Shown here in pieces: positions 7,033-40,400 of a stretch of 40,564 nucleotides of DNA; position 1 is the first letter of the stretch; every line of letters begins with the position of its first letter. The position numbers and the translations under genes are program-made. The notes beneath the pieces were generated by a model, which did no database searches, was not told the DNA's origin, and saw only the letters and a program-made list of their open reading frames with translations. The stretch is from the IMG/VR virus record IMGVR_UViG_3300041583_000386, positions 1-40,564 of that record. The stretch is one strand, 5' to 3'. Origin of the DNA: a virus.

Positions 7033-7061
7033 TTAATAATTCAAATTTTAAGTAAATAGCA

Positions 7062-20739: not shown

Positions 20740-21084
20740 ATGGAAATAAGGTCAGAGATTTTAAAAAACACACAAGACCACATTGAAGAGCATGGTCTAA
20801 GCACCTCATCAGAGGAATTATTTATAAGTTTTGAAATACTATCTACTCTTCATCGTGAATTTGAAGCTTATTTAAATAATGAAAAATTAATCTTTAGACT
20901 TAATGCCATGAAAAGAAATAAGAGACTTAAAGAAAAAAGAAAGCTTTTTGCTGTGTGGTATATTGCAAAAAATCAAGATAAAAAAATGATGAAAGAAATG
21001 CTTTACGAACTTTCTGAAATGTTTTTTATCACTACAAGAAGCGTTCAGAATGACTTATTTCACGAAACTACTGAACAGAATTAG
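20740..21084 (+). CDS. Helix-turn-helix-like protein before the capsid genes, candidate late regulator
   Basis: 114 residues, helical and basic. The C-terminal segment (KKMMKEMLYELSEMFFITTR then SVQNDLF, about 81-107) has the spacing of a helix-turn-helix of the kind seen in DeoR/BglG-like regulators. I know no structural role for such a protein at this site. Its last codons contain the first copy of the 14-bp late-promoter motif (21063-21076). A function as activator of the late promoters is a hypothesis only. Confidence 0.75.
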   Translation: MEIRSEILKNTQDHIEEHGLSTSSEELFISFEILSTLHREFEAYLNNEKLIFRLNAMKRNKRLKEKRKLFAVWYIAKNQDKKMMKEMLYELSEMFFITTRSVQNDLFHETTEQN

Positions 21085-21123
21085 AAAATACCTTATCCAA
21101 TATTAGGCTATAACATAGATTTG
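21063..21123 (+). promoter_or_regulatory. Late promoter 1 (scaffold-capsid block)
   Basis: Motif CGAAACTACTGAAC at 21063-21076, a 39-bp gap, then -7 box TAGATTTG at 21116-21123 (exact TAnnTTTG). The scaffold gene starts 23 bp later. No TTG -33 box is seen about 20 bp upstream of the -7 box. The same motif and spacing recur at 26916 and 35221. Confidence 0.75.
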
Positions 21124-21146
21124 AATCAAATAAGAAAACAAATACT

Positions 21147-21842
21147 ATGACATTATTAGAGAAACTCAAAGCAGCACTTAAATTAAAAGGGTTAAGCGAG
21201 GGTCTTGCAGATTTAATTAACATCACATCTGAAGATCAAATCGAGGGGATTTTAACTCAATTATCATCAACTCAAAACTCTGACGAATTGGACTTTTCAA
21301 AAGTACTTTCATCAAATGAATTCAATGCGTATGTTCAAAAAAATGGGTTTGATTCACTTTTAAAAAATTCAAAAACATTACAGAGCGAACATGACAAAAA
21401 AGTGAGTTCAGGAATCAAAACATTTAAAGAGAAATACTTTAAAGATATGGATCCAGAAGGTGCGGAAGGGCATGAAGACGGTAAAGGTAAAGAAGGTATG
21501 CAAAATCAAAATGACGCTCCTGAATGGGCTAAAGCATTAATTAGTAAGGTAGAAAACCTAGAGAAAGAAAAAGCCAGCACTGGTAAACTTTCACAAGCTA
21601 AAGATTTATTTACCAAATCCGTTACACTTCAAAAACTTCCAGAAAAACTACAAAACAGTTGGTTAAACAGAATTAATCTTGAAAGCGAAACTTCATTCGA
21701 GGACCAAATTAAGGCACTTGAAGAAGAAGTTACTGAGTTTAAAATTGTGACCGTTAACTCAAAAGGTTTACCTATTGGTGGAGGTTCAGCAGACAAGCCT
21801 TCAGATTCAGAAGTTAATGACATAGTAGATGCAATCGTTTAA
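21147..21842 (+). CDS. Capsid scaffolding protein
   Basis: 231 residues, acidic and mostly helical, with a low-complexity linker (DPEGAEGHEDGKGKEG, about 101-116) and a coiled-coil region (LISKVENLEKEKASTGKLSQ). This is the composition and position of siphophage scaffolds, directly before decoration and capsid genes. It should form the internal core of the prohead and leave or be degraded before packaging. First gene after late promoter 1. Confidence 0.8.
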   Translation: MTLLEKLKAALKLKGLSEGLADLINITSEDQIEGILTQLSSTQNSDELDFSKVLSSNEFNAYVQKNGFDSLLKNSKTLQSEHDKKVSSGIKTFKEKYFKDMDPEGAEGHEDGKGKEGMQNQNDAPEWAKALISKVENLEKEKASTGKLSQAKDLFTKSVTLQKLPEKLQNSWLNRINLESETSFEDQIKALEEEVTEFKIVTVNSKGLPIGGGSADKPSDSEVNDIVDAIV

Positions 21843-21861
21843 TCTAAAATTAATTTAAAAA

Positions 21862-22230
21862 ATGGCAACAGCGAATTTAACTACAAGCCAAAGTGTTGAT
21901 ACTACTAACGATTCTGTCGTTATAGTAAAATACTTTGAAGGTATTCCAGGAGGTCGCACTTTAAACGTTACAGGGTTTGCTGATGATGAAATATCAGCTG
22001 GTCATGTAATTATAAAGGAAACTTCCAGCGGTGAATACAAACCACTAGCAGCAACAGGTACTTTACCAGCTTCACATACCTATGCAGGTATTTTAGTGGC
22101 ATCAATCAAAAAAGAAAATGCACAAGCAGCTATTATGGTACGTGGTACTGTAAACGAAGCATACGCAAAATATGCGATTCCAACAGCTGCAAAAAATGCA
22201 TTAAGTTTAATCAGATTTATAAGCGAATAA
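21862..22230 (+). CDS. Head decoration protein
   Basis: 122 residues, beta-rich, with the D-protein-like arrangement GHVIIKETSSGEYKPLAATG, then YAGILVASI and AAIMVRGTVNE. Such proteins bind the outside of the expanded capsid and stabilise it. Location between scaffold and major capsid genes supports this. Confidence 0.8.
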   Translation: MATANLTTSQSVDTTNDSVVIVKYFEGIPGGRTLNVTGFADDEISAGHVIIKETSSGEYKPLAATGTLPASHTYAGILVASIKKENAQAAIMVRGTVNEAYAKYAIPTAAKNALSLIRFISE

Positions 22231-22231
22231 G

Positions 22232-23530
22232 ATGGTAGCTAGTATTTTTAAAGACCTGATAAGTAAGTACTTTCCAGCCGTAGCTGCGAAACTAACTGAA
22301 AGATTTAACGGAAAAGTAGAAACTCCTGTATTTGAGCATCAAAAATACTTGAAGCCTGAGTTTTCTACAGACATGAAATTTTCTTCATTAAGCAGCAACA
22401 GTTCTATTGTAGCTGCAGATGTCGTATCATTAGATTCTGAATTACCTCTAAAAAAGCGGGGTTCTTTCCAAACAGCAGAGGGAGAAATTCCAAAGCTTGG
22501 AATGAAGAAATCTTTAAATGAAACTCAGCTTCAAGGAATTAAAAACCTTAAATCTAGAGGTGGCAAGCATCTAGTAATGGCTCAAAAGCTATTTACAGAT
22601 TTAGCCGATGGTGTTAAAGGTGTTTACGAACGTCTTGACATAATGTTTCTCCAGGCTCTCTCAACCGGTGTAACTATTATTGATGAAAACAATAATACAG
22701 GGACTGGTATTCGTGTTGATTTTGGAATTCCATCAAAAAATCAGTTTGGAGTTCAAAAAGAATGGACTGATGCAAGTGCTAAACCTATAACAGACATTGA
22801 AAATGTTGTTTCAGCCGCTAGGGGTAACGGCAATACATTATTAAACATCTTCATGGATAAAGTAACGTTTAACGCTTTTAAGTCTAATGAAGAGGTTAAA
22901 AAAGCCTTTGCTGGATTCAATCGCGTGGATGCTAGTTTGATATTTAGAATTAATAGAACTGAAATAGACGCTTTTCTTTTAGAAGAATTTGGAATGACAT
23001 TGATAGTAATCGATAAAACAGTCCAGGTAGAAAAAGGTGGTGTTAAAGTTGGTTATGAGCCTTGGGAGCGAGGAAATGTAACATTTACTTCATCTTTAGA
23101 TTTAGGAACTATCACTTGGTCAGAGTTGGCTGAGTTAGATAGCCCTGTTGATGGTGTTGAATATGGAGTAATCGATAGCTTTATATTAGGTTCGCTTTAT
23201 AGAACTAATGATCCATTAAGAGAAAACACAAGTGTTCAAGCCTTGGCTATTCCAGTGCTTGATAATGTAGATTCTATTTACATAATGGACACTAACGAGG
23301 CCACCGCTAGTTTAGACACACAAACTGAGGATGATGCTGATTACTCATACAATTCAGTTGACTACACTAAAGTATCGGTAGTTGCAGGTATAAACGCTGC
23401 TAGATCAGTAGATAATCATGTTCCAAAAGCTACAACAGCTCAATCAGATGCTACTCTAGCTAAGAAAATTGATAGTCTATCAGATGCAGGTATTGCTTTA
23501 TTTGAAGATGAATTAGTAGCTTCTGCATAA
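22232..23530 (+). CDS. Major capsid protein
   Basis: 432 residues, following the decoration gene. Visible parts fit an HK97-fold capsid protein of the phage capsid E type: an extended N-arm (ETPVFEHQKYLKPEFSTDMK), a long spine helix (GIKNLKSRGGKHLVMAQKLF) and a beta-rich A domain (NIFMDKVTFNAF, later LYRTNDPLREN). Position between decoration and connector genes makes the call secure. Confidence 0.92.
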   Translation: MVASIFKDLISKYFPAVAAKLTERFNGKVETPVFEHQKYLKPEFSTDMKFSSLSSNSSIVAADVVSLDSELPLKKRGSFQTAEGEIPKLGMKKSLNETQLQGIKNLKSRGGKHLVMAQKLFTDLADGVKGVYERLDIMFLQALSTGVTIIDENNNTGTGIRVDFGIPSKNQFGVQKEWTDASAKPITDIENVVSAARGNGNTLLNIFMDKVTFNAFKSNEEVKKAFAGFNRVDASLIFRINRTEIDAFLLEEFGMTLIVIDKTVQVEKGGVKVGYEPWERGNVTFTSSLDLGTITWSELAELDSPVDGVEYGVIDSFILGSLYRTNDPLRENTSVQALAIPVLDNVDSIYIMDTNEATASLDTQTEDDADYSYNSVDYTKVSVVAGINAARSVDNHVPKATTAQSDATLAKKIDSLSDAGIALFEDELVASA

Positions 23531-23859
23531 TGACGGTTTTAGAAGCCATAAAAGCTAATCCTATACTGGTAAATGTACCGGTAAACTATATTGAATCAGT
23601 AATGATTAGCCGGTCCGTTAGTGGGTCGGCTGATTATACTGAAAGTTCATTGAAAGATGTAGAATTAGTGTCAGCGGATTTATATGCTGCAATAGCTACT
23701 TTACCTGAATTTAAGGAAGGTCAATTATCATTAAAATATGATAGTGGAATTCTTAAATCTAGAGCTTTGGCATTGTACAATAAATATGATGACGATAAGG
23801 CAATTGAACTAAAACCTCAACCTATAATAGTCAATGTCACTGATGTAAGCAATGCTTAA
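23530..23859 (+). CDS. Head-tail connector, adaptor-like
   Basis: 109 residues, helical. The segments TVLEAIKANPILVNVPVNYI and SADLYAAIATLPEF with the final LALYNKYDD resemble the DUF6706 and gp6/gp15-type adaptors that bind the portal. Start overlaps the capsid stop by one base. Confidence 0.75.
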   Translation: MTVLEAIKANPILVNVPVNYIESVMISRSVSGSADYTESSLKDVELVSADLYAAIATLPEFKEGQLSLKYDSGILKSRALALYNKYDDDKAIELKPQPIIVNVTDVSNA

Positions 23860-24208
23860 GAGATACCCACATAATGGAAAAATAGTTGTTGTTTTTGAGA
23901 ATGATTCTAATACTGGAATTTCATCAACTAAAACAGAAGAATTCATTATTGAAGGTAGGTTTGAGCCAGAAGCAAGTAAATCAGACAACATAGATTATAA
24001 GGGTAAGTTTTATTGTGAAAGTTTAAATTACCTATTAAAAAAGTTCATTGAAAAAGGATTGTTTCCTGATAGCTTAATTTCTAATGAAGAGAGCACTAAA
24101 TTAATGCCTTTTGGTATTGATGGTCAAACCTTAATTTATAATGATAAGCGATTTCAAATAGTAATGCTTCATAATTATCAAACTCATTGTGAGATATGGC
24201 TAGAATAA
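23852..24208 (+). CDS. Head closure protein (head-tail joining)
   Basis: 118 residues, beta-rich (GKIVVVFENDSNTGISSTKT, later GQTLIYNDKRFQIVMLHNYQ and CEIWLE). Size, fold pattern and place as second gene after the capsid match stopper/closure proteins that seal the portal channel after packaging. Family not named by motif; called by synteny. Confidence 0.7.
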   Translation: MLKRYPHNGKIVVVFENDSNTGISSTKTEEFIIEGRFEPEASKSDNIDYKGKFYCESLNYLLKKFIEKGLFPDSLISNEESTKLMPFGIDGQTLIYNDKRFQIVMLHNYQTHCEIWLE

Positions 24209-24630
24209 ATGGAATGAAAGCACTTTTTGGATCACACCAGATAAAAAATGTAATTGAAAATTTTCAAAAGGAAAATGAAAAAAGAACATTAATATCTCTG
24301 CAATATCAAGGTGAGTTATTTGTAAATAAAGCTAGGCTAAGTGGAACATATAGAGATATCACAGGCAATTTAAGAAGCTCTATTGGTTACGTAATTCTAA
24401 AAAATGGCGTTGAGGTAGATAGTAATTTCATAGGTAATTCTGATGGATCCTTAAAAGGAAAAAATGTTGCAAATGAAGTTGCAAAACAATACCCTAAAGG
24501 ATATGTTTTAATTGGAGTAGCGGGCATGGATTACGCTGCTTATGTTGAAGCAAAAAACTATGATGTAATAACAGGTTCAGCGCCTACAAGCGCAGAATTA
24601 AAATCTATTTTAAATGCGATCAACTCTTGA
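24196..24630 (+). CDS. HK97 gp10-like neck protein
   Basis: 144 residues. The pattern of an N-terminal helix, LRSSIGYVILKNG, a variable loop, then YVLIGVAGMDYAAYVEAKNY is characteristic of the HK97 gp10 family (conserved AAYVE near the C-terminus). It joins head and tail. Overlaps both neighbours. Confidence 0.85.
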   Translation: MARINGMKALFGSHQIKNVIENFQKENEKRTLISLQYQGELFVNKARLSGTYRDITGNLRSSIGYVILKNGVEVDSNFIGNSDGSLKGKNVANEVAKQYPKGYVLIGVAGMDYAAYVEAKNYDVITGSAPTSAELKSILNAINS

Positions 24631-25000
24631 TATTTCATCTGCTTTATTCCAATTGGTAAACATTCCAATTGTGAAGAATGAAATAAGCGGTAAAGTACAT
24701 ATAGGAGACGCGCCAAACGGAAGTCAGTTAGAAGAAATCACTATTAAGGTTTTAAACAACCCAAATACATACCTTCAAAACGGATTTATAAATTTAAATA
24801 TTTATACTCCACAACTAAAATCTGGGAGGGCTAATTTAGAAAGGCTTCAGCAATTAATAGGTATAATAATTCCACTAATAAAAGACGTATCAATAAACAG
24901 CTATCATTTTCAGATTGACGATGATAAAGGGGTTTTCAAAGATCAAGACAATGACGGCATGTACTTTTACAATTTTAAAATAGAATTTCAAACAATTTAA
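24614..25000 (+). CDS. Tail terminator / completion protein
   Basis: 128 residues. Mixed alpha/beta with GKVHIGDAPNGSQLEEITIK, then FINLNIYTPQLKSGRANLER, in the position of the gpU/gp17-type tail terminator right before the tail tube gene. It should cap the tail tube at the head-proximal end. Confidence 0.75.
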   Translation: MRSTLDISSALFQLVNIPIVKNEISGKVHIGDAPNGSQLEEITIKVLNNPNTYLQNGFINLNIYTPQLKSGRANLERLQQLIGIIIPLIKDVSINSYHFQIDDDKGVFKDQDNDGMYFYNFKIEFQTI

Positions 25001-25012
25001 AACAATTTAAAA

Positions 25013-25537
25013 ATGGCAGCAAATAATAATTTTTTAGGAATTTTAGCATTCGCTCTTGGAGCGCCAGGGGATGGAATAATGGGAACAACTTTAACTAATT
25101 TCCCAGACGTGGAAGTTGGTAGTGTTAATATTGAAGGATCTCAAGCCAATCAAGAAACCATCTCAACAGAAGGTAGTGACGCGTACATTACTTTAAACAA
25201 CGACGCGACACCAACAACAGTTAACGCGAGATTGTATGGTGTAACGCCAGTACAAATGGTACTTCTTGCTGGGGGATCAGTAGATGAGGGTGATGGTTTA
25301 TGGAATGCACCAAGTAGCGTTCCTGAAATTAATCTTTCATTTAAAATGGAAGGTAAACCTAACAATGGCAGAAAGGGTGTTTTAGAAATGGCTTATGCTA
25401 AAATAACAGCCAGAGTTCAAGGAACGGTTACTAAAAATGGATTACCTGCAGTTGATTTAGTTATCACAGCAAACACTCCAGTATCAGCAGCAAATGTTCA
25501 AGGACCACCTTTTAGAATTGGTACCATAGAGGCGTAA
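25013..25537 (+). CDS. Major tail tube protein
   Basis: 174 residues, beta-rich, with VEVGSVNIEGSQANQETIST, SFKMEGKPNNGRKGVLEMAY and VDLVITANTPVSA, the pattern of siphophage tube proteins. It is followed by a strong terminator, consistent with the high output needed for this subunit. Confidence 0.85.
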   Translation: MAANNNFLGILAFALGAPGDGIMGTTLTNFPDVEVGSVNIEGSQANQETISTEGSDAYITLNNDATPTTVNARLYGVTPVQMVLLAGGSVDEGDGLWNAPSSVPEINLSFKMEGKPNNGRKGVLEMAYAKITARVQGTVTKNGLPAVDLVITANTPVSAANVQGPPFRIGTIEA

Positions 25538-25558
25538 AAAATACAATCAATTTAAATC

Positions 25559-25589
25559 AAAAGCCATTATATATCTAATGGCTTTTTTT
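25559..25589 (+). terminator. Intrinsic terminator after the tail tube gene
   Basis: Perfect 11-bp stem AAAAGCCATTA/TAATGGCTTTT with a 6-base loop, and seven Ts at 25583-25589. The chaperone gene starts 11 bp later with no late-promoter motif between, so it depends on readthrough and should be made at a lower level. Confidence 0.85.
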
Positions 25590-25599
25590 ACATGTATAA

Positions 25600-26058
25600 A
25601 TGGATACTAGAAAACAATTACTGGATGCTTTTGTAAGAAAATCTACTACTTACACAATAGAAGTTCGTAAATCTGGAATGCTTCCAGCTGAATTAATTGA
25701 AAGGAAGGAAATTGATTTTAAGATAAAACCACCAACAACTTATGTTTTGTCATTATGCGCTTCCTTAATGGAAGACATACCTGATGAGGTTTACAATACT
25801 GAAAATGCAGATTTAAAAACTGCAATGACCTATCAAGATCAAATTGCTAGAATAATTTCTGTTTTATCATGGGAAGACAGTGATTATCCTGAGTGGTACG
25901 TAGAGTTCATACTTAAGAATGTACAAATTGTTGATTTACTTAAAATAATGCAGGAAACGGCTTTAAAATGCAATCCTAGTTTTTTTTTGAGTTGTTTCCA
26001 GATTGCAAAAGTGAGCAATCCGATGAACCTAAACGATTCAATCCCTACAGCTTCATAG
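25600..26058 (+). CDS. Tail assembly chaperone, short form (gpG-like)
   Basis: 152 residues in frame 0. Helical, with AFVRKSTTYTIEVRKSGMLP and LSWEDSDYPEWYVEFILKNV. Position between tube and tape measure and the frameshift site at its end identify it as the tail assembly chaperone. The codons after the slippery run add a short tail used only by the non-shifted product. It coats the tape measure protein during tail assembly. Confidence 0.85.
   Translation: MDTRKQLLDAFVRKSTTYTIEVRKSGMLPAELIERKEIDFKIKPPTTYVLSLCASLMEDIPDEVYNTENADLKTAMTYQDQIARIISVLSWEDSDYPEWYVEFILKNVQIVDLLKIMQETALKCNPSFFLSCFQIAKVSNPMNLNDSIPTAS
25980..25988 (+). other. Programmed -1 frameshift site (T9 run)
   Basis: Nine Ts read in frame 0 as TTT-TTT-TT(G) and contain the heptamer T TTT TTT. 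Slipping back one base moves ribosomes into the frame that stays open to 26225. This matches the G/GT system of siphophage tails. Confidence 0.75.
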
Positions 26059-26225
26059 GTAGTATTTGCAACTATTATCATTTTGATTTTGAAACAGCCA
26101 CAAAAAAAATGTCATTTAATAATCTTTTGTTATTAAGTGCATCTGTCCCGAAATTTAAAAGCAATAAGGATGATGATGAAAATACGCCTAAAGATTTTAC
26201 AAGTTTTATAATGGGAAAGCTATAA
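25986..26225 (+). CDS. Tail assembly chaperone, frameshift extension (gpGT-like)
   Basis: The -1 frame continues FELFPDCKSEQSDEPKRFNP and then a hydrophobic-helical part (YSFIGSICNYYHFDFETATK, later SFNNLLLLSASVPKF). It lacks a convincing start of its own (only a TTG at 25992) and is best read as the C-terminal part of a fused product starting at 25600. The extension would bind the tail tube protein while the common part binds the tape measure. Confidence 0.8.
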   Translation, partial: FELFPDCKSEQSDEPKRFNPYSFIGSICNYYHFDFETATKKMSFNNLLLLSASVPKFKSNKDDDENTPKDFTSFIMGKL

Positions 26226-26909
26226 TACAACAGTTAAAACTTGAAGCCTACTAAAATTTTTATCAGTAATATGCCTAATGTTATTTGGTATTTGAACTTT
26301 AACACCATCTATGTACTGTTCTGAGAAATGAATTTTAAAAGTAACATTGTCTGGATAAATAAAGCTAGGTAAATTATCTACTTGATTAATAAGTGAATTT
26401 TCATTGAAGAAAGGGCATATATCTAAGCCCTTTAGATAGCTAAAATCAAGTAATTTTTTCTTTATTAATTGCTTATCGATTATCCATTTATATCCCTTAA
26501 AACTTCCGTAATTATACCAGTAGCGTTTATTGTCAGCGTAAACACCAGAACCAGACTCTTGGTAATTAATAATGTCTACTTTCTTGCAGCTCCAGGCTAA
26601 AGTTCCATCAATAAGCAAGCAGTTATTTTTGTTAATTTCAGATAAGTCAGCACACTCAGAAATGCGGTGCATATAAAATATGAATTGATAAGGATGCACT
26701 TCTTTTCCTTTATAAAAAGCTTTAGTTGATTTCCATTTTTGCACCAAACCAAACAAGGTACGCATCATCTTATATGCAATTAGCAATTGCTCATGCTCAA
26801 TAGTAGTTTTCACATTTTTTCCATCATAAGAACCGCCTAATTCTAGAGCAAATTTAAGCGCAGAATTAAAGTCTTTAGACTTGTTTTTAGAAAACTGAAG
26901 TGTGTACAT
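26220..26909 (-). CDS. Inverted moron gene in the tail module, unknown function
   Basis: 229 residues on the strand opposite to all structural genes, tail to tail with the chaperone gene (six-base overlap). The protein is soluble and rich in Trp, Tyr and Lys, with segments such as FYKGKEVHPYQFIFYMHRI, LAWSCKKVDIINYQ and RYWYNYGSFKGYKWIIDK. I do not recognise it. A -7-like TACCTTTA lies upstream on its strand (26938-26931), so it can be expressed apart from the late genes, as typical for morons active in the lysogen. Superinfection defence is one possibility, not shown. Confidence 0.85.
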   Translation of the reverse strand: MYTLQFSKNKSKDFNSALKFALELGGSYDGKNVKTTIEHEQLLIAYKMMRTLFGLVQKWKSTKAFYKGKEVHPYQFIFYMHRISECADLSEINKNNCLLIDGTLAWSCKKVDIINYQESGSGVYADNKRYWYNYGSFKGYKWIIDKQLIKKKLLDFSYLKGLDICPFFNENSLINQVDNLPSFIYPDNVTFKIHFSEQYIDGVKVQIPNNIRHITDKNFSRLQVLTVVL

Positions 26910-26915
26910 AAGTTA

Positions 26916-26976
26916 CGAAACTACTGAACATAAAGGTAAATATAAACAAAATGCCAAAGCCTAAAATCTAATTTTA
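26916..26976 (+). promoter_or_regulatory. Late promoter 2 (tape measure block)
   Basis: CGAAACTACTGAAC at 26916-26929, 39-bp gap, then TAATTTTA at 26969-26976 (TAnnTTTG with the last base changed). The tape measure gene begins 19 bp later. Similarity to late promoter 3 extends beyond the core on both sides (AGTWA before, TAAAG after). Confidence 0.72.
26931..26958 (-). promoter_or_regulatory. Promoter of the inverted moron gene
   Basis: On the minus strand TTTG (26958-26955), a 16-bp spacer and TACCTTTA (26938-26931), one base off the TAnnTTTG consensus. The spacer is slightly short. Transcription would start near 26924, inside the 14-bp late motif at 26916-26929. Confidence 0.45.
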
Positions 26977-26995
26977 GCACAAATCTACATATTAA

Positions 26996-29900
26996 ATGGT
27001 AAGAGGTGATAATAGCTTGTTTTTCGCGACAGGATTAGACAATTCAGGTCTTAAACAAGGTGCTTCAGATGCTGGAAACATTATTAGCAATTTAGGCAGT
27101 AGTATCGCTTCAATAAATCCTTTTGCGGCCCTTGCTGCTGGAGCAGCAGTGGCATTTGCCAGTATTGCGAAAGGAGCTTATGATTTAGCAAAGAATTTTG
27201 AGCAAGCAATGAAAGAGGTTGAAACAATTTCTGGAGCTGTTCAAGGTGACTTTCAAGGAATTTCACAATCAGTTTTTGATCTTAGTAACATAACACCTGA
27301 TGGGCCCGAAAAACTAGCCAAGGCTTATTATCAAATAGTATCTGCTGGTTTTGATGGTGCTGAGGGATTAAAGCTTTTGGAGGTATCGGCCAAAGCAGCT
27401 GTAGCCGGAGTTACAGATACGATGACTGCTGCAGACGGTATAACAACAGTTTTAAACTCTTTTAAAATTGCAGCATCTGAAACAGAAAGTGTATCAGATG
27501 CTTTATTCAACACTGTAAAATTAGGTAAAACAACCTTTGGAGAATTGTCATCTAGTATTGCGCAATTTGCTCCAATTGCAGCTGCTTCTAACATTCCTTT
27601 AAATGAAGTCTTGTCAACTGTAGCAAGTTTGACAAAGCAAGGTGTTCCTACTGCTCAGGCAGCAACTCAAATAAGGGCAGCCATTGTTGGAATTCAGAAA
27701 GCAGGATCTTTAGATGGCACAAAAACTTTTCAGGAAAACATGCAATCTCTTTATGATAGCTTAAACGGAAATCAAACAGCTTTATTAAAAGAGGTTGGTA
27801 GTATTGAAGCTGTGCAAGCAATATTGGCAGTATCTGGAAAAAATGCTCAAGCAGCGAGTGCTGACTTAGAATCTTACAAAGGTGTAATTGGATCTACGGA
27901 AGAAGCATTCAAAAGAATGGCCTCATCTAATGTAAATCAATGGGCTATTTTAGGAAATAGAATAAAGGCTACAACTTCAGGGATTGGTACTGCTGTTTTG
28001 CAAGTAAGCAGCGGTTTGGCAAGTTTTCTTAATAAGGCACTGGAAGATACTGATAAAGTTTCCAGAGGGATGAACGAACAGCGGATTAGATTAATTTCTT
28101 TGCGTTCTGAGATTCAAGAGACTAACATAGAAGAAAATAGGAGAAAAGAAATACTTGAAGAATTAGTGAAAATAAGTCCAGACATAATAGGGGCTTTGGA
28201 CTTAGAAAAAACAGGACAAAAAGAGCTTTTAAAAGCGATTGACGAAACAAATGATAGTTTAATAAATCAAATAGTAATTCAAAAAAGGCAAGAAGAAATT
28301 TCATTAGTTGCAAGCGATGCTGCTGATTTAGAAAATAAAATTATTGATAAAACATTAAAGCTTAGAGAAAGAATAGCTAAAACACAAGATGAATTTAGTA
28401 TATCACTAAATGAAAATTTAAGTCCCTTAGAAAAGGCTCGTGAATTGTCTGAAAAATTATTAAAACTAAATGAAGAAACTTCCAGTGCTAGAAAAAAAGG
28501 AGCTGGTAGTTTAGCACTTTCTTTAGTAGGTGACGTAACTAACATTAATAACCTTCAAAAAGAATCAGACAATTTACAAGATCAAGTTAATAAATTATCT
28601 AAGGTTCGGGAAGATTTAAAAAAGCAGTTTGGAATAGGGGCTTCAAATATAGTTACACCACCAACAGAAACTAATGAAGGTATCGATGAGCCTAAGGAAA
28701 TAAAAACTTATTCTGATTATTTAAATGACAAAGCTAAATTATATGAAGATTACGAAAATTATGTTGTCCTATTAGGTAAGAAAAAAGCAGACGAAAGATT
28801 TAAAACATTGCTATTACAAGGAGATGATTATTCAAAATTTCTTGAATCTGAGTTAGAAAAAGCTAAAACTTTTGAGAAAGAAAAAGCAATTGTTAGAGCT
28901 GCTTCAAGTGCTGGAGTAGGATTAAAAAACAGAGAAGAGGTCACACCTTTAAAATTTGATCCTAAACCAATAAAAATTGATATTGAATTAGATACTACTT
29001 CAATTAATGCAATAAACAATAGGCTGAAAAAGCTAAATGAAGATTTCGCAAAAGCTAAAAATGATTCTGAAAGAGAGTCTTTAGCACAAAGTATTGTTAT
29101 TGAACAAAAAAAACTACAAACAGCCCAGGCGTTTTTAAATAAAGAAGAAAGTTTGTATGAAAACATTCAAAGGAATATCTCAGATTTAAACAATAATGAA
29201 TTACGAGAATACATAGCCTATTGGCAGAAAAGATTAAGGGTAGCTGAAAAAGGAAGCGCACAAGCTGCAGAAGCAGATAGTAATATTGGAAACGCTGAAA
29301 GAACTATCTGGAAAAACAGACTTGATCAAATTAACTCAAATTTAGATGAAGTAGCTGCTATATTTCAAAATTTTGGAGATTCAGTAACAGCTGACATTGT
29401 AAGGGGTTTACAGGTTGCTGGTGGCCAGCTAAACAATCTTTTTACGAGTCTTGATGAGAACTCTACTACAGGTGACGTTCTTTCGGCAGGAGTATCAAGT
29501 GCTATAAGTCTCACTAATATAATTGTGGGTTCTGCAGCTAAAAGAAAACAGGCAGAAGAAGAATATTATTTATCAGTAATTGGATTTCAAAAACAATACA
29601 ATCAACTCTTAAATGACCAACTAAGAAACAGAGATTCATTAAATGAAAATGTATTTACTTTTGATTATATAAACGAATTACAATCAGGTTTAGATGCGCT
29701 TTCAAACGCAGGTGATAGATATCAAGAAGCTTTATCTCAGCTTTCAGAAGGTGAGGCAAAGCTAGGACAAAGAAATGCTATTGGCTTAGATTCTATTTTA
29801 GGGGGAATAGGATCAGGAGCTGGTCTTGGAGCCGCTATAGGGTCAATTGTTCCTGTAATAGGTACCGCTATAGGTGCTGTAATAGGTGGAGTGATAGGTG

Positions 29901-30724
29901 GTATTGCAGGAATATTCGCGGGGAAAAAGAAAAAAGACATATTTGGCGATTTGCTTAGCGAATATCCTGAGTTAATTAGAGAGGCTACGGATGGTCAAAA
30001 AACTTTTAATACAGAATTAGCACAAACATTAATAGACCAAAGCCTTGTTTCTGGAAAAACTAAATTACTATTAGAAGACACGATTAAATGGACAGAACAA
30101 CTTAAACAAGCCAGGGAACAAATAAAAAGCGTTATAAGTGATTTGGCAGGCGATTTAGGAAGCAATTTAAGAGATGTACTGGTGGCATCATTTGAAAATG
30201 GAAGTGATGCTGCTAAAAAAATGGGTGAGACCGTTTCGGATGTCTTGCAGAATATTTTAGAGCAATTAATATTTGATCAAATATTTTCAAAGCAATTCAA
30301 AAAGCTTGAAGATGAAATGGCAAAGTCATTTGATATTGGAGGTGATAATACTTGGATTGATGATTTTTCAAGATTCTTTAATGAAAGTAAAAATTTAACT
30401 GAAGATTTTAATTCTGCATTAGCAGCAGCTCAACAGGCAGGAAGAGACTTTGGTTTTGAAGACTTATTCCAAGCAGAAAAAAGACCTGGTTTAGCCGGAG
30501 GCGTTTCAACAATTACAGAAGACACCGCAAACATACTTGCGGGCACCATAAACAGCATTAGAATAGATGTTGCCAACGGAATAGCAGTAGCTCAACAAAG
30601 CAGCGTTTACTTGTCAATGATTGTGCAAAACACAAGCTATAACAAATATCTAGAAAGTATTGACAACAGAATGAAGAGCGTAGAAAGTTCACTGTCAAGT
30701 TTTGAAGCTTCAGGGTTAGGATAA
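26996..30724 (+). CDS. Tail tape measure protein
   Basis: 1242 residues, predominantly helical. The N-terminal 350 residues match the TP901-type tape measure domain (AMKEVETISGAVQGDFQGIS, LAKAYYQIVSAGFDG, later PTAQAATQIRAA). The middle has long coiled coils. About 935-980 is a Gly/Ala/Ile-rich hydrophobic hairpin (GAAIGSIVPVIGTAIGAVIG) that may insert into the inner membrane at DNA ejection. Protein length sets tail length, and this size predicts a long siphophage tail. It is read from late promoter 2. Confidence 0.95.
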   Translation: MVRGDNSLFFATGLDNSGLKQGASDAGNIISNLGSSIASINPFAALAAGAAVAFASIAKGAYDLAKNFEQAMKEVETISGAVQGDFQGISQSVFDLSNITPDGPEKLAKAYYQIVSAGFDGAEGLKLLEVSAKAAVAGVTDTMTAADGITTVLNSFKIAASETESVSDALFNTVKLGKTTFGELSSSIAQFAPIAAASNIPLNEVLSTVASLTKQGVPTAQAATQIRAAIVGIQKAGSLDGTKTFQENMQSLYDSLNGNQTALLKEVGSIEAVQAILAVSGKNAQAASADLESYKGVIGSTEEAFKRMASSNVNQWAILGNRIKATTSGIGTAVLQVSSGLASFLNKALEDTDKVSRGMNEQRIRLISLRSEIQETNIEENRRKEILEELVKISPDIIGALDLEKTGQKELLKAIDETNDSLINQIVIQKRQEEISLVASDAADLENKIIDKTLKLRERIAKTQDEFSISLNENLSPLEKARELSEKLLKLNEETSSARKKGAGSLALSLVGDVTNINNLQKESDNLQDQVNKLSKVREDLKKQFGIGASNIVTPPTETNEGIDEPKEIKTYSDYLNDKAKLYEDYENYVVLLGKKKADERFKTLLLQGDDYSKFLESELEKAKTFEKEKAIVRAASSAGVGLKNREEVTPLKFDPKPIKIDIELDTTSINAINNRLKKLNEDFAKAKNDSERESLAQSIVIEQKKLQTAQAFLNKEESLYENIQRNISDLNNNELREYIAYWQKRLRVAEKGSAQAAEADSNIGNAERTIWKNRLDQINSNLDEVAAIFQNFGDSVTADIVRGLQVAGGQLNNLFTSLDENSTTGDVLSAGVSSAISLTNIIVGSAAKRKQAEEEYYLSVIGFQKQYNQLLNDQLRNRDSLNENVFTFDYINELQSGLDALSNAGDRYQEALSQLSEGEAKLGQRNAIGLDSILGGIGSGAGLGAAIGSIVPVIGTAIGAVIGGVIGGIAGIFAGKKKKDIFGDLLSEYPELIREATDGQKTFNTELAQTLIDQSLVSGKTKLLLEDTIKWTEQLKQAREQIKSVISDLAGDLGSNLRDVLVASFENGSDAAKKMGETVSDVLQNILEQLIFDQIFSKQFKKLEDEMAKSFDIGGDNTWIDDFSRFFNESKNLTEDFNSALAAAQQAGRDFGFEDLFQAEKRPGLAGGVSTITEDTANILAGTINSIRIDVANGIAVAQQSSVYLSMIVQNTSYNKYLESIDNRMKSVESSLSSFEASGLG

Positions 30725-31555
30725 ATGATAAACGGGAAACCATATTTATATTACGGATTAATACCTATTAGAAATAACGGGTTTCTAGACATGCCATCAA
30801 GATTAGGAGAGACTATGTACGATTGGGGTGACTTTACGGAGCCTCTAGTGCATCAAGATGATTTATACTGGTCATCAATTGATTTCAAGATTGATTTTTT
30901 ATTTGATTCCAGAGTTACTAATAAAACCTTTAGGCAGTCAATATCTGAGCTTGAAAACTTAAGGGATTCGTTTGAATTGATAAACCAATTTGGATCCTTT
31001 AATGTTAAATTGAAAGAGGCAAATAAAACCAAACATACTATTGATAGTAAGGTTGTTTATGAATTAATATTCACTAACGAAAACGTGCAATTTAATTCTG
31101 AATTACCAAGCCCAATAGTTGGTAGCGGTATTTCAATCGACGGATATGGACTTTATGAAAACTTTTCATTATTAATTCAAAGCGTAAAACTAAATGACAA
31201 CATCGCCAGTCTAAAAGATTCAAACAAAACTGTTTCAAACTTTAAAAACCTGCTAAGTAGTTTTAGAACATTTAAAGAAATAGAAATAAAATCAGCTATA
31301 AAAAATGATGGAAATGAATTTGAAAATATTGAGTTCTTAAAAAAAATCTTGGCAAATTCAGGATTAAGGAAAATTGCACACAAAGGAATTAATTATAATG
31401 CTTTTTTAACACAGGGTTTCAAAGTTATAATTAAGAGAAATTTTATTGAGTTCACCTTTAAGTTAAATATTCTCAATCAAATAGGTGTTTTTCAAGACGG
31501 GCTATTTGAGATTGGATTATTGACTTCAGGAAATCAAAGAAAGTTTTTGAATTAA
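30725..31555 (+). CDS. Distal tail protein
   Basis: 276 residues, starting immediately after the tape measure stop. The beginning (YLYYGLIPIRNNGFLDMPSR, then YDWGDFTEPLV) and position match distal tail (Dit-like) proteins that form the hub at the tail end in Bacteroidota siphophages. Called largely by synteny. Confidence 0.75.
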   Translation: MINGKPYLYYGLIPIRNNGFLDMPSRLGETMYDWGDFTEPLVHQDDLYWSSIDFKIDFLFDSRVTNKTFRQSISELENLRDSFELINQFGSFNVKLKEANKTKHTIDSKVVYELIFTNENVQFNSELPSPIVGSGISIDGYGLYENFSLLIQSVKLNDNIASLKDSNKTVSNFKNLLSSFRTFKEIEIKSAIKNDGNEFENIEFLKKILANSGLRKIAHKGINYNAFLTQGFKVIIKRNFIEFTFKLNILNQIGVFQDGLFEIGLLTSGNQRKFLN

Positions 31556-31597
31556 CCCATTAAATATGAATTATTTAATACTGAAACTTTAAAAAAA

Positions 31598-34500
31598 ATG
31601 ATAGTATACAGGGGCATAGAAGAATTTTTAAATGTAGAGGTAGACTCAAATTCTAGCCTTAAGCAAGAATTAGGGGGCCAAGATATTATTGATTGTAATT
31701 TTACCTTAGAATTTTATTATGATTTTAAAATAGGAGACTACATTAACTGGAGGGGTAAAAAATACACCATATTCAAGCAACCATCTACAAAAAAATCTAA
31801 AACAAATGAAATTGTCTATTCAATTGAATTTGCTAGCGATCAATATAGGCTTTTAAACGCTTTATACTTATTAGATGGTAATGGTGAGTTTTACCTTTTA
31901 GCAGACCTTCAGAAGTTTGCGGAATTGCTAATTAATAATTTAAATAGACTAGCCGGCACAAACTATTATAGCTTAGGAACAGTACCTACAACAACAGTTA
32001 AAAATCTTAATTTTTCTAATGCTAATTGTCTTTTGGTGCTTCAGCAATTATCATCTGAATTTGGAATTGAATTTCAGTTTTCAGAAGACGGAACTACTAT
32101 TGACTTTCTAAATAAAATAGGCAATCAAACAAACTTAACTTTTAAATTTAAAGAAGGTTTAAGAGATATTGAAAGACAAAAAATATCAGACAAAAGCTTA
32201 GTTACTAGGCTTTATGCGTTTGGAGGAGAGCGTAATATTACTCACGATTATGGATCTAAAAGACTAAAAATTGAAGGTTTAGAAAATAACACAAATATAT
32301 TTGGAGTAATAGAAGGTGTTGTAACATTTGAGGATATTTACCCGCACAGAGAAGGCACAATAACCTCACTAGGATCAAATGAATTTACCTTTATAGATTC
32401 TGGTATTGATTTTGATATAAACGAACAGCTTATAGCAGGTGTAGTTGCGAAAATCACTTTCAACACTGGTTATTTAGCCGGTTATGAATTTGAAATAAAC
32501 AGTTTCAATAATTCAGATAAAGAATTTGATATTATTGAATATGAAGACACAAACGGATTAATACTACCTAATTCAGTTTTAAAGCCAGCCATAGGTGACA
32601 AATATGTAGTGCATGACATCATTATGCCTCAATCTTATATTGATTTAGCAGAAGAAGAATTAACCAATAAGGCTAATGATTATTTATTGGAGAACAGCTT
32701 GCCTAATGTGTTATTTAATATAATTCCACACTACCCATACCTAAGAAATAATCTAATACAGTTAAATATTGGAGACATTGTAACGGTAAAGGATGATGAT
32801 TTTAATGTTGAATACGAGGCTAGAATTCTAAGTTTAACACAAAGCTTATTGAACCCATACGTTTACTCTATTAAAGTAGGAGATAAAGTGACGGTAAACT
32901 ACATTACCAAAGTGCTTTCAAATCAATTAGAAACAGACAACAATGTTTTTATTGAGCGTTTTGATAGAACTGTACAATATAACAGAATCAGAAGAAATTT
33001 AAAAAACATTGACGAATTAAAAGAATCAATTTTTGATCCTGATGGTTATTTTGATGCTGAAAAAATAAAACCTTTAAGTATTGAAACAACAATGCTTTCA
33101 GTTGGAGGAAAAAGTCAACAATTTGTTATTCGTGAATTACTAATAGAGGCTAATTATCAAAGTGATCACAATAAAACTTTAATAGGTGATGGCACCTTGG
33201 TTCATTTTTTAATTGAAGATACTATTAAAGAGTGGTCACTAAGTGGTAGCGAAAAAAACCATGCAGATAGCAATCAATTCTACTATATATATGCGCGTTG
33301 TTTAAGAGGTGGTACAACAGGAGATTTCTTAACAAGTTCAGTTCAGTATAAAGTAGATACTGGATCTACTTATTATTATTTTTTAATTGGGGTTTTGCAT
33401 TCAGAGAATGAAGGTGTCCGGGGGATTTCTCTCACTTATGGCCAGACAACTATAAACGGTAGATTCATTACTACAGGCAGAATACAGTCTGTAGATGGAT
33501 TTAATTATTTTGATTTAGATAATGGTCAATTCTTTATTGGTGATGGTAATAGTTCATTAGACTGGAATGTAACTAATGCTGATAGGCTAACTATTAAAGG
33601 GTCATTGCTTCAAACACAAGCAGGAAACAACATTGTAGTTCCTAACTTGAGGGGAGATTATAACTCTTCAACAGTTTACTATGAAGGTGATGTTGTGGTT
33701 TTTAATGGCGCAAGCTATTTCAAATTAACATCAACAGGAGATTATGGTCTAAGTCCAGACAACTCAACTCATTGGAGGGTATTTGCTAATAAAGGTGAGC
33801 AAGGCGCACAGGGTACTCAAGGATCACAAGGCGCACAGGGTGCTCAAGGAGCTGCAGGAGATGAAGGTATTCAAGGTGATCAAGGAAATCAAGGAGGAAT
33901 AGGGCCAACTGGTCCTAGTGGAGTTCAAGGTCCGGCTATGGTTTTTAGAGGAGAATTTCAATCTGGTGCAGTGTACTATAATAGCGCAAATAGAAGAGAT
34001 GTTGTAAAGCAATCTGGAATATTTTATTTTTTTATTGGAACAAACGGATCTACTCAATATTCTTTTAATAGTAGTTTATGGGAAAATTTCGGAGCTCAAT
34101 TTCAAAGCGTAGCTACTCAGTTGTTGCTTGCTGAGAGTGCTAACATTGCGGATTGGATTATTGTAAATGGTAAAATAACTAGCCAAAACCAATATAATGG
34201 AGAGCCAAGAGCTCAGTTAAATGGAGAAATGGGCCAAATTACTTTAAAATCTCCTAGAACTATATATGATGCTAATGGAAATTCCATAGTTGTAGCTCAA
34301 ACCATAGATTTAGACTCTAATAATGGAAGGATATTGGCGAAACACTTAGGCAATTCAACGCAAGAAGGTGGTTATACAGAATTAACAAGCGAGGGCATTA
34401 GATCAGAATTTGCTGGCCAAGTGCTTAGTAATGGATTAAAACAAATAAGAGCCGGTGTTTTGGTAGATGCAAAAGGAAGGCTTAATGCTTCAGCTTTTGG

Positions 34501-34894
34501 AAACCTTGGAGCGGTTGTTGGTGTTTATGGCAGAGCTACTAACGTTCAATCAGGAGGGGCGCCAGCTTTTGGAGGTTATTTTGAAAGACTATTTATGACT
34601 GGAGAGACCCATTTAATAGCTAATGTTTTTGGAAACTTTACAGTGACTCAGCAAGATTCTATTTTCGCTAAAAGCACTAGTGTTTCTCTAACTGTTTTTC
34701 TTGAGCTTAACCCATCAGAGGGTAGAAAAATAACCGTTAAGAGATGTCAAGTTCAATCTGTTACTATAAATGGTAATGGCATTGGCCTTTGGCACAATGG
34801 ATATGAAGGCACAACTATGAATATAAATACAACAGGGCAAGCTTACCAATGTGAATATGACGGAACATATTGGCAAGTACTAATAATAGGATAA
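31598..34894 (+). CDS. Tail tip protein with collagen-like segment (Tal/receptor-binding-like)
   Basis: 1098 residues. The N-terminal 400 residues look like a phage minor tail/Tal-type hub domain (FASDQYRLLNALYLLDG, later NIIPHYPYLRNNLIQLNIGD). The middle is beta-rich. Residues about 733-780 are Gly-X-Y repeats (GEQGAQGTQGSQGAQG). The C-terminal 310 residues are again beta-rich and probably adhesive. It should form the tail tip and contact the host surface. Confidence 0.85.
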   Translation: MIVYRGIEEFLNVEVDSNSSLKQELGGQDIIDCNFTLEFYYDFKIGDYINWRGKKYTIFKQPSTKKSKTNEIVYSIEFASDQYRLLNALYLLDGNGEFYLLADLQKFAELLINNLNRLAGTNYYSLGTVPTTTVKNLNFSNANCLLVLQQLSSEFGIEFQFSEDGTTIDFLNKIGNQTNLTFKFKEGLRDIERQKISDKSLVTRLYAFGGERNITHDYGSKRLKIEGLENNTNIFGVIEGVVTFEDIYPHREGTITSLGSNEFTFIDSGIDFDINEQLIAGVVAKITFNTGYLAGYEFEINSFNNSDKEFDIIEYEDTNGLILPNSVLKPAIGDKYVVHDIIMPQSYIDLAEEELTNKANDYLLENSLPNVLFNIIPHYPYLRNNLIQLNIGDIVTVKDDDFNVEYEARILSLTQSLLNPYVYSIKVGDKVTVNYITKVLSNQLETDNNVFIERFDRTVQYNRIRRNLKNIDELKESIFDPDGYFDAEKIKPLSIETTMLSVGGKSQQFVIRELLIEANYQSDHNKTLIGDGTLVHFLIEDTIKEWSLSGSEKNHADSNQFYYIYARCLRGGTTGDFLTSSVQYKVDTGSTYYYFLIGVLHSENEGVRGISLTYGQTTINGRFITTGRIQSVDGFNYFDLDNGQFFIGDGNSSLDWNVTNADRLTIKGSLLQTQAGNNIVVPNLRGDYNSSTVYYEGDVVVFNGASYFKLTSTGDYGLSPDNSTHWRVFANKGEQGAQGTQGSQGAQGAQGAAGDEGIQGDQGNQGGIGPTGPSGVQGPAMVFRGEFQSGAVYYNSANRRDVVKQSGIFYFFIGTNGSTQYSFNSSLWENFGAQFQSVATQLLLAESANIADWIIVNGKITSQNQYNGEPRAQLNGEMGQITLKSPRTIYDANGNSIVVAQTIDLDSNNGRILAKHLGNSTQEGGYTELTSEGIRSEFAGQVLSNGLKQIRAGVLVDAKGRLNASAFGNLGAVVGVYGRATNVQSGGAPAFGGYFERLFMTGETHLIANVFGNFTVTQQDSIFAKSTSVSLTVFLELNPSEGRKITVKRCQVQSVTINGNGIGLWHNGYEGTTMNINTTGQAYQCEYDGTYWQVLIIG

Positions 34895-34896
34895 TT

Positions 34897-35217
34897 ATGA
34901 TAATAATAAGCAAATATTTAGTTAGAAAAGGTTTTGCTGCAATGGCTATTTTTCCTTTTATAATATTTAAGAAAAAAGAATTTATAAACCCAAATAGGCT
35001 AAATCACGAGAAAATACATTTAAGACAGCAATTAGAATTATTTGTATTGCCTTTCTTTATTTGGTACGCCATAGAATTTTTATATAAATACTTGAAGTTC
35101 AAGAGTAGTAAAAAGGCATATTACGATATATGCTTTGAAGTAGAGGCATATTCAAACGAAAAGAATTTAGATTATTTAAAAAAAAGAAGGTTTTGGAATT
35201 TTTTAAAATACAAATAG
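34897..35217 (+). CDS. Small membrane protein with HExxH motif
   Basis: 106 residues from the ATG at 34897; an upstream in-frame ATG at 34870 would overlap the tail tip gene. HExxH at 37-41 (RLNHEKIHLRQQLE) and a possible third ligand among Glu81, Glu83 and Glu88 in FEVEAYSNE. Hydrophobic stretches at about 11-24 and 49-65 suggest membrane association. It resembles a short host-type metallopeptidase-like protein of Flavobacteriia. Its role between tail tip and fibre genes is unknown; it may be a moron. Confidence 0.75.
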   Translation: MIIISKYLVRKGFAAMAIFPFIIFKKKEFINPNRLNHEKIHLRQQLELFVLPFFIWYAIEFLYKYLKFKSSKKAYYDICFEVEAYSNEKNLDYLKKRRFWNFLKYK

Positions 35218-35220
35218 TAA

Positions 35221-35281
35221 CGAAACTACTGAACTAAAGTATGATTAAGGTTTAAAAAATTCAATTCAGAATATAAATTTG
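35221..35281 (+). promoter_or_regulatory. Late promoter 3 (fibre block)
   Basis: CGAAACTACTGAAC at 35221-35234, 39-bp gap, then TAAATTTG at 35274-35281, an exact TAnnTTTG. The fibre gene begins 17 bp later. No -33 TTG is present in the expected place. Confidence 0.75.
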
Positions 35282-35298: not shown

Positions 35299-36378
35299 AT
35301 GGACCAAAAAAATATTAGAGAATGGGATAATGAACAATATTCAGTTGAAGAAGGAGCTGCGCTCATAAAAGAGCTAGATGACAGAACAAAGTCAGATGAA
35401 GAAGGGTATAACTCAATACAAGAATTAGCTTTAAAAGTTCAAGAAGTTGAACAACAAGGTAATACAGGAGACACTGGCCCACAAGGAGACACTGGCCCAC
35501 AAGGTGTTCAGGGTGATACAGGACAAAGTGGAGCAGATGGTCAGAACGGAACAGATGGAGCTACAGGATTAGACGGTAAGACTATTTTAAATGGAGTTTC
35601 AGCACCAAGTACAGAAGGTGTAGATGGTGATTTTTATATAGATACTATTGGTAAAAATATTTATGGACCTAAAGCCGCTGGAGATTGGGGCTCTCCAACT
35701 TCTATTATTGGAGATAAAGGAGATACAGGAGATACTGGCCCACAAGGAGCTTCAGGAACAGGAGGAGAGGGAGGTAGCGCTACTCAAATAAGACAAGGTT
35801 CAGGTTTGCCTAGTAATGGTTTAGGGATTGATGGTGATTATTACATAGACACTGCGACTTGGGATATTTACCAGAAAACTACTGGAACCTATTCTGTAAT
35901 AGGCAATATAAAAGGTGGTGTTGGACCTCAAGGAGATCAAGGAGATCAAGGTATTCAAGGCATAGATGGTGATCAGGGTGTGCAAGGATTAAAAGGTGAT
36001 ACGGGTAATACAGGAGATACTGGCCCACAAGGTGTTCAAGGTGTAGAAGGACCTCAAGGTGATGCTGGAGTTACTGAAGTTGGATATTCAAACTTAAAAG
36101 CAGAGTTCACAGCGCGGGTTTTGATTTCTGCGAGTGACGTAGATTTTTCAATCGGGGCGGTATTTCACAAAACACTAGACGCGCCAACTACTTTGACTTA
36201 TTCAAATACTGAGATTGGACTTATTAAAACCATGGTCATAACTCCTGCGGGTTTTGCTCTGAGTTTAACAGGTAATCTCACAATAGGCAGCGAATTTAAA
36301 ACCGACGCCGTGAATCACATTCAAGTTGAGTGTACAGACACAAATGAATTTTGGATTTCAATCTCTCAAACTATTTAA
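35299..36378 (+). CDS. Collagen-like tail fibre protein
   Basis: 359 residues with three Gly-X-Y blocks (about 53-94, 138-160 and 205-257; e.g. GDTGPQGDTGPQGVQGDTGQ) separated by short domains that share a common unit (DGDFYIDT..KNIYG and DGDYYIDT..WDIYQ). The C-terminal 100 residues form a beta-rich head. The collagen-like parts should trimerise into a rod, the head binding the host. First gene after late promoter 3. Confidence 0.85.
   Translation: MDQKNIREWDNEQYSVEEGAALIKELDDRTKSDEEGYNSIQELALKVQEVEQQGNTGDTGPQGDTGPQGVQGDTGQSGADGQNGTDGATGLDGKTILNGVSAPSTEGVDGDFYIDTIGKNIYGPKAAGDWGSPTSIIGDKGDTGDTGPQGASGTGGEGGSATQIRQGSGLPSNGLGIDGDYYIDTATWDIYQKTTGTYSVIGNIKGGVGPQGDQGDQGIQGIDGDQGVQGLKGDTGNTGDTGPQGVQGVEGPQGDAGVTEVGYSNLKAEFTARVLISASDVDFSIGAVFHKTLDAPTTLTYSNTEIGLIKTMVITPAGFALSLTGNLTIGSEFKTDAVNHIQVECTDTNEFWISISQTI
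35463..36068 (+). repeat. Repeated collagen-coding DNA segments
   Basis: GAYACTGGCCCACAAGG recurs, nearly identical, around 35469, 35487, 35732 and 36018, beside shorter Gly-X-Y coding repeats. DNA identity above what the protein needs makes recombination between copies likely. Confidence 0.7.
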
Positions 36379-37537: not shown

Positions 37538-37624
37538 ATGACTCAGGTATTTATAAATGGAAAAGAGATTGATTTAATTGACGTCACTTCTGTATATCCA
37601 AATGACAAAAAAAATCAAAGATGA
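37538..37624 (+). CDS. Very small protein (28 aa) before the holin
   Basis: ATG preceded by TTAAAAA and a stop overlapping the holin start (ATGA). Product MTQVFINGKEIDLIDVTSVY plus a short polar end. May serve mainly to couple translation into the lysis genes. Confidence 0.45.
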   Translation: MTQVFINGKEIDLIDVTSVYPNDKKNQR

Positions 37625-38049
37625 AAACATATTTAATTTACCTATTTACTGCAGCTTGTTTGTTTTTAACTCCTATTACAGGGCTGCTTATTGCCGTAGG
37701 AATGGCTATTTTACTAGATACTATTTTTGGGATATTTAGATCAGTAAGAGTAAAAGGATGGCATTTTATAACTAGCCGTAGGCTCAGCGAGATAGTATCA
37801 AAAATGCTACTTTATCAACTTTGTATTATTTGCTTGTTTATAATAGATAGACATGTACTATCCGAGTTTTTTTTTAAGTGGTTTTCAATTGAATATTTCG
37901 CTACAAAAATATGCGCGATTCTATTAATATTTATAGAGGGTGTTTCCATTAAAGAAAACTTTGAAAAAGCAACTGGTTTAGATATTTGGGCCATGTTAAA
38001 AAAAGCAATCGGCAGAGCCAACGAAATCAAAGAATCTATAAAAAAATGA
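37621..38049 (+). CDS. Holin (phage holin 4 family)
   Basis: 142 residues with three hydrophobic segments (about 3-35, 62-78 and 93-107) and the family-like DTIFGIFRSVRVKGWHFITS after the first pair. The C-terminus is basic. It should form inner-membrane lesions that release or activate the muramidase encoded next (four-base overlap). Confidence 0.85.
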   Translation: MKTYLIYLFTAACLFLTPITGLLIAVGMAILLDTIFGIFRSVRVKGWHFITSRRLSEIVSKMLLYQLCIICLFIIDRHVLSEFFFKWFSIEYFATKICAILLIFIEGVSIKENFEKATGLDIWAMLKKAIGRANEIKESIKK

Positions 38050-40337: not shown

Positions 40338-40339
40338 AG

Positions 40340-40359: not shown

Positions 40360-40400
40360 GCAAAAGACAAAAACACAGCATTGAAGAATTTTCTTTTTTA

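Follow-up and report, generated by a model that had tools for sequence, protein, structure and literature searches.

A conserved motif in fixed register with a -7 box suggests activator-dependent late promoters in temperate phages of flavobacteria

A DNA stretch of 40,564 nucleotides (nt) from a virus (IMG/VR record IMGVR_UViG_3300041583_000386, positions 1 to 40,564; here called the window), whose gene content points to a temperate siphovirus, bears on the control of late genes in temperate phages of Bacteroidota. A preliminary description had noticed three identical 14-bp motifs in it, each 39 bp upstream of a -7 box, and had proposed a phage-specific late promoter. The sigma factor and the promoters of Bacteroidota hosts differ from the Proteobacteria and Firmicutes models. 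No late promoters or activators of Bacteroidota phages were found in the literature searched, which did not cover most subscription papers. The available part of a Crassvirales review states that late genes are likely read by the host polymerase, and the word "promoter" is absent from its main text as far as that part goes. Judging from gene order and sequence, the three sites are probably late promoters of a temperate flavobacterial siphovirus, at which a phage-specific activator, most likely a small helix-turn-helix (HTH) protein, would recruit the sigma-ABfr polymerase via the upstream motif. We give this reading a probability of about 0.72.

In the window, the motif CGAAACTACTGAAC is present in three exact copies (Table 1), which precede the scaffold/capsid genes (site S), the tape-measure gene (site T) and a fibre block (third site); the scaffold is identified by position and the fibre by collagen-like repeats. 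The gap between motif and box is 39 nt in all three cases, two of the three boxes match TAnnTTTG fully and one ends in A, and the start codons follow 23, 19 and 17 nt past the boxes. There is no TTG within 40 nt upstream of any of the three. The preliminary description was thus accurate on identity, spacing, boxes, start codons, gene order and the missing TTG. No further copy of CGAAACTACTGAAC with up to two mismatches occurs elsewhere in the window. At three mismatches four more matches appear, and the total of seven is not unusual (it is reached in 4 of 100 shuffles), so that the signal resides in the exact copies. Only three 14-mers occur at least three times on the same strand of the window, two of them overlapping frames of the motif and the other in a collagen-like coding repeat. 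Among 300 dinucleotide shuffles, 15 contain any 14-mer with three or more copies, and none contains one with at least five G/C, of which the motif has six. The background frequency in the window is 0.3% of positions for TAnnTTT and 1% for TAnnTTTG with at most one change.

A prediction of the proposal is that motif and spacing recur in relatives that share the gene order. Relatives were collected with the capsid protein (L004 to L012), with the HTH gene (L051, L054) and with a divergent gene that adjoins site T (L205, L206, L209); the decoration protein as query yielded no new phage. L007 is a prophage of the isolate Aestuariibaculum marinum IP7. Left out of the counts were 99% duplicates of the window phage (L004, L048, L203, L213) and duplicates of L011 (L010, L049, L218), as well as L209, which is near L011 and whose T and third sites are not counted. 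L012 and L054 count for S only, their tape-measure region not being on the contig. A scaffold-like gene follows the S site of L012; the L054 contig ends just behind the site, and "before the scaffold gene" there means the place behind the HTH gene.

In every readable relative of the group, motif, exact spacing and position are kept, so that the proposal withstands this check. The motif, often drifted, is found in 12 lineages on the scaffold side and in 10 before the tape-measure gene, and all 22 sites share one register. The exact 14-mer has no match with up to two mismatches in L005 and L006. TAnnTTT stands in register at 21 of 22 sites, the exception being L054 with TAGATTAG; the expectation by chance is 0.05 per offset among 18 sites. 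The final base of the box is A at 16 sites and G at six, and positions G-2, C2, T3, A4 and G7 are invariant at all 22. In L054, part of the motif is present a second time (CTACTGAAC, 6503-6511), 13 nt before the corresponding letters of the full copy.

The way in which the sites were first sighted bears on these counts. Those of L008, L009, L011 and L012 came from a fixed-spacing pattern, which carries a caveat of circularity, and those of L205 and L206 from a scan that included the offset; the sites of L005-L007 were found by reading homologous places, and those of L051 and L054 also by reading. Sixteen of the 22 sites were recovered again without any spacing rule. In eight phages, which include the near relatives L009 and L011, the best GAAACTACTGA match within 140 nt upstream of the S and T genes has 0-2 mismatches at 16/16 places, and TAnnTTT stands 49 nt after the A of ACTAC at every one of them. 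The distance from motif to start codon in these phages is 72 to 93 nt at S sites and only 74 to 77 nt at T sites. In the divergent phages L205 and L206, which were found via another gene and whose capsid proteins are 39 and 45% identical, both sites are where predicted; L206 has one further pattern match at an unrelated place. Information content, taken over the first 18 sites, is 0.31 bit per position in the spacer, 1.31 in the motif and 1.04 in the box; the spacer gives 0.48 with T sites alone and 0.39 with S sites alone, from fewer rows. The motif overlaps the last codons of the HTH gene in seven lineages. In the other five the stop codon precedes the A of ACTAC by 6-11 nt, so that conservation of the motif is not a coding effect, and site T lies outside the tape-measure gene.

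A scan of viral contigs (at least 120 stretches) with the motif-plus-box pattern listed 80 loci, none of which matches any of 31 window proteins (tblastn, E<=1e-3); the pattern alone is therefore too loose for such a large collection. Cellulophaga phage Nekkels_1 (a 21-kb stretch) and the human-gut sequences MT835576 and MT835752 are related to the window phage by a capsid or tape-measure protein, and contain no matching site pair, only single chance-like matches at four mismatches. In the Nekkels_1 and MT835576 stretches, the HTH profile has no match below E 0.02, and the divergent gene has no match in any of the three, which therefore do not separate the two candidate regulators.

The variants of the motif match within a phage. 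S and T sites share GACACTACGGGAT in L205, ACTAT or GCTAT in L051, CTACCGA in L005 and CGAAACTACTGAAC in the window, with imperfect agreement in places (CTACTG at S against CTACGG at T in L006). When the 14-nt motifs of nine phages were permuted (L011 was omitted as too near L009), the true S-T pairing was the single best of 362,880 (p=2.8e-6); the 11-nt core gives 6.6e-5, and seven phages alone give p=2e-4. Applied to spacer, box, upstream flank and downstream flank, the same test yields p values of 0.35, 0.39, 0.063 and 0.31, respectively. Since the signal is confined to the motif, copying of the whole region is no explanation, and the matching speaks, though indirectly, for a reader that acts in trans and is specific to the phage. 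A search of three complete host genomes with the pattern GNMRCTACNG-N42-TANNTTTR retrieves the six prophage sites and nothing else, and a backwards-pattern control retrieves one match.

The box can be related to the promoters of the host. In Flavobacterium johnsoniae, the -7 element extends from -12 to -5, and the start lies 4-5 nt further on (PMC6847099, in the part available). This placement predicts starts near 21128, 26981 and 35286 and puts the motif core at about -64 to -54; the preliminary description had -50 to -64. According to the accessible portion of PMC4287176, this is a class I activator position. A weaker second element lies near -33, where CTT[TCA] is present in columns 23-31 at 16 of 22 sites, compared to 8% of background 9-mers; TTG or TTTG is found there at 0/22. 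It had been proposed that the activator replaces the -33 contact. The absence of TTG stands, and relatives carry a conserved non-TTG element in this place, so that the wording has to be refined. The missing TTG is also not diagnostic, because the -33 element is hardly visible in F. johnsoniae itself, and weak in general (PMC6847099, available part). Relative to the sigma-ABfr consensus (TTTG / TAHHTTTG, same partial source), the phage sites have TAnnTTT at 21 of 22, and differ in the last base, which is the G of the consensus at only six, in CTT[TCA] instead of TTG at 16 and, at site S of the window, in a G at -10, which that source finds virtually absent.

Which protein reads the motif is a matter of inference from sequence. 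Most likely, it is the small HTH protein, a homolog of which is encoded directly upstream of site S in 12/12 lineages. Most lineages have a single gene, and a profile search shows a tandem HTH pair before the scaffold-side site in L205, L206 and L012, which may possibly act as a heterodimer on the asymmetric site. In five records spanning early to late genes (phmmer, E<1e-3), the proteins common to all are those of virion type and the products of the HTH gene and of the divergent gene; no early protein is shared by all, and repressor-like and integrase-like groups occur in four each. The AF2 model of the HTH protein is all-helical (mean pLDDT 87.5), with C-terminal helices at 84-95 and 99-107, and residues ~58-114 align weakly to HTH domains, among unrelated rows (VIA).

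Among 397 genomes of the family, 11 have a match to the HTH protein alignment at E<=0.001; the match is full-length in three (L007, L009 and L005) and partial in the remainder, mostly in the C-terminal half. At E<=1e-12 the alignment matches 4/395 genomes of the order, and 1/1 and 1/18 in two genera; no new phage with a full-length HTH protein came from these searches. Short HTH proteins of about 50-60 amino acids that resemble the C-terminal part of the candidate exist elsewhere in Flavobacteriales (L179-L187, L190-L202). In L195, L196, L201 and L202, a homolog of a phage-group gene (window 37621-38049 or a late-side gene of L009) is found ~0.5-1.7 kb downstream of the short HTH gene. No site pair was seen near the short proteins: 15 loci were read, 13 of them of that kind, and they contained two isolated pattern matches.

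A number of observations weigh against the reading of the sites as promoters served by the HTH protein. The third site is clear in the window only. A motif copy in L009 (joined record, 36321) and in L209 (reverse complement, 7715) lies inside a gene and has a poor box (TAACTTTC), so that it is at best possibly a third promoter. Motifs with three changes and a box also occur at unrelated places, four times in ten records, and the CTT[TCA] element is missing from two of the three window sites, only S having it. For the HTH protein, a Foldseek search of the PDB gives no match at E<=0.001, and its best VIA Z is 5.1, while unrelated proteins reach 5.0; sigma chains score 3.3-4.8 among unrelated rows that score equally, and a family missing from these structure matches is not thereby excluded. 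No named regulator family is matched in Pfam or NCBIfam by the members used, in sets of six and nine, and one PHROG, with no function assigned, matches 3/9 members (best E 5e-4). In Mantel tests on seven phages, HTH distances do not follow motifs at the non-coding T sites (rho -0.22 to 0.24 over protein parts, p >=0.19). Distances over residues 96-107 correlate with those between S-site motifs (rho 0.65-0.68, p 0.003-0.007), which may reflect linkage, the site overlapping or abutting the gene; the scaffold protein also correlates with S motifs (rho 0.52-0.61). At T sites the first 80 residues of the divergent protein correlate with the motif, with rho 0.50 and p=0.012 for positions -3 to 8, and 0.27 and p=0.083 for the 14-mer.

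This last result speaks for a different reader of the same promoters, namely the divergent gene product, which would regulate itself and the tape-measure operon. Its start codon adjoins site T, and its first ~80 residues are conserved in 10/10 lineages with the region on the contig. The conservation is limited to these residues, though, the structural model is poor beyond residue 84 and shows no HTH, and the structure search gives only insignificant, ferredoxin-like matches. The divergent gene, which lies on the reverse strand inside the late block, matches neither Pfam nor PHROG. It is ~1 kb away from site T in L011 and in L209, a near relative of L011, and the site is still kept; S motifs do not correlate with the protein. 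We consider this assignment unlikely. It is more improbable still that a host transcription factor, or RNA polymerase itself at an UP-like element, reads the motif: the three host genomes contain no further copy of the architecture, the variants match within each phage, and the motif has invariant G and C positions, whereas an UP element is A/T-rich.

The remaining explanations do without a promoter function. The sites stand at module borders, as would short conserved linker or recombination sequences, but a non-regulatory linker should not keep a fixed distance to TAnnTTT across a largely unconserved spacer, nor should within-phage matching be restricted to the motif. This explanation can nearly be dismissed. 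Binding alone would produce the same conservation if the motif were a repressor operator, or a packaging or replication site, that happens to precede late genes. A position at -64 to -54 would be badly suited for occlusion by a repressor, and the fixed phase to the -7 box would be unexpected for packaging or replication, which makes this possibility very slight.

If the sites are indeed late promoters activated by the HTH protein, the following picture emerges. The TAnnTTTR box (-12 to -5) would be read by the RNA polymerase of the host, carrying the primary sigma factor of Bacteroidota, and the asymmetric motif, with the consensus GAAACTAC-N-G, would be bound at about -64 to -54 by the phage-specific activator, which would recruit polymerase in the class I manner. 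In the upstream operon, the HTH gene follows the portal and head-morphogenesis genes and immediately precedes site S; this operon would supply the HTH protein, which would then turn on the S, T and fibre promoters. The S promoter would drive a scaffold-capsid-tail operon, and the T promoter the tape-measure operon, which would have a promoter of its own because the reverse-strand gene cuts it off. In this phage, the third promoter would drive the block that starts with the fibre gene. A more general proposal, for which the chances seem about even, is that an undescribed family of small HTH proteins activates late sigma-ABfr transcription in temperate phages of Bacteroidota through a three-part promoter, with the -64 to -54 motif, CTT[TCA] near -33 replacing TTG, and TAnnTTTR.

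Table 1. Features of the window phage around the three sites, and HTH gene pairs of relatives. Positions refer to the window unless a relative is named.
Feature	Position	Strand	Remark
S24-type repressor	697-1353	-	from gene content
HTH protein, 114 amino acids, candidate late activator	20740-21084	+	final codons overlap the site S motif
Upstream motif, site S (scaffold/capsid)	21063-21076	+	
CTTA, site S form of the element conserved near -33	21092-21095	+	lacking at site T and the third site
TAGATTTG, -7 box of site S	21116-21123	+	
First head-operon gene, scaffold	21147-21842	+	named by position
Decoration-like gene	21862-22230	+	behind scaffold gene
Major capsid gene	22232-23530	+	
Divergent gene, rival candidate regulator	26220-26909	-	adjoins site T; first ~80 amino acids conserved
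Upstream motif, site T (tape measure)	26916-26929	+	
TAATTTTA, -7 box of site T	26969-26976	+	
Tape-measure gene	26996-30724	+	many tape-measure PHROGs match
Upstream motif, third site (fibre)	35221-35234	+	
TAAATTTG, -7 box of third site	35274-35281	+	
Fibre-like gene, first behind third site	35299-36378	+	collagen-like repeats
Integrase	39153-40376	-	from gene content
Tandem HTH genes	L205 and L206 (reverse complement 3096-3609 and 3714-4131), L012 4947-5349		profile

Some further features were noted in passing. The scaffold gene product has a single PHROG match, phrog_5824, which carries no function. A hairpin with an 11-bp stem lies between two tail genes (25559-25586) and may be a two-way terminator; terminator-like sites in the window are at chance level (8 found, 7.2 expected). 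A SocA/Panacea-domain protein (12035-12550, E 7.6e-21) overlaps an open reading frame (12547-12996) with a very weak PemK-like match (E 0.048), and the two are a possible toxin-antitoxin pair. By reading only, a 482-amino-acid protein (14173-15621) resembles a ParB-like domain fused to a DNA methyltransferase. In L005, a head-morphogenesis match (6359-8512) is interrupted by an in-frame insertion of ~360 residues, which gives the impression of an intein.

The analysis yields a testable proposal, with exact sites, predicted starts, a candidate activator and, in A. marinum IP7, a named isolate that carries such a prophage. If the proposal is true, it shows a sigma-ABfr promoter served by an activator bound upstream, supplies a marker with which late operons of flavobacterial prophages can be located, and offers a phylum that is short of genetic tools an activator together with its promoter.

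Among known systems, the RinA/ArpU-type late activators of Firmicutes phages are small phage HTH proteins encoded near packaging or head genes. The candidate is alike in type and location, and has some sigma-factor rows among its structure matches. It differs in having no family match, in being encoded after and not before the terminase genes, and in the phylum of the host. The Ogr activator of phage P2 is a zinc finger protein, and its motif is located about 55-60 bp before the start. P2-type late promoters resemble the present sites in that one upstream motif stands before several late operons, that there is no good -35 element and that a small phage activator is needed (PMC5694545, in the part available). 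Ogr binds dyads, such as TGTTGT-N13-ACAACA in the RSY1 phage (same partial source), whereas the three window sites contain no TGT-N12-ACA, and their longest perfect dyad arm is 4 bp. The HTH candidate has no cysteine or a single one in 9/9 sequences and hence no zinc finger, and the host sigma factor and the -7 box of the P2 system also differ. The Mu activators C, for late genes, and Mor, for middle genes, form phage-specific activator-site pairs, and the Mor-dependent promoter has no recognisable -35 element (PMC4287176, accessible portion). Mu sites are dyads in contrast to the asymmetric motif in class I (-60) position described here. As the site has no dyad and the candidate activator no zinc finger, we place the system under neither P2 Ogr nor Mu C. 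With one motif before several late operons at a fixed distance from the box, it would belong to the general kind of activator-dependent late promoters.

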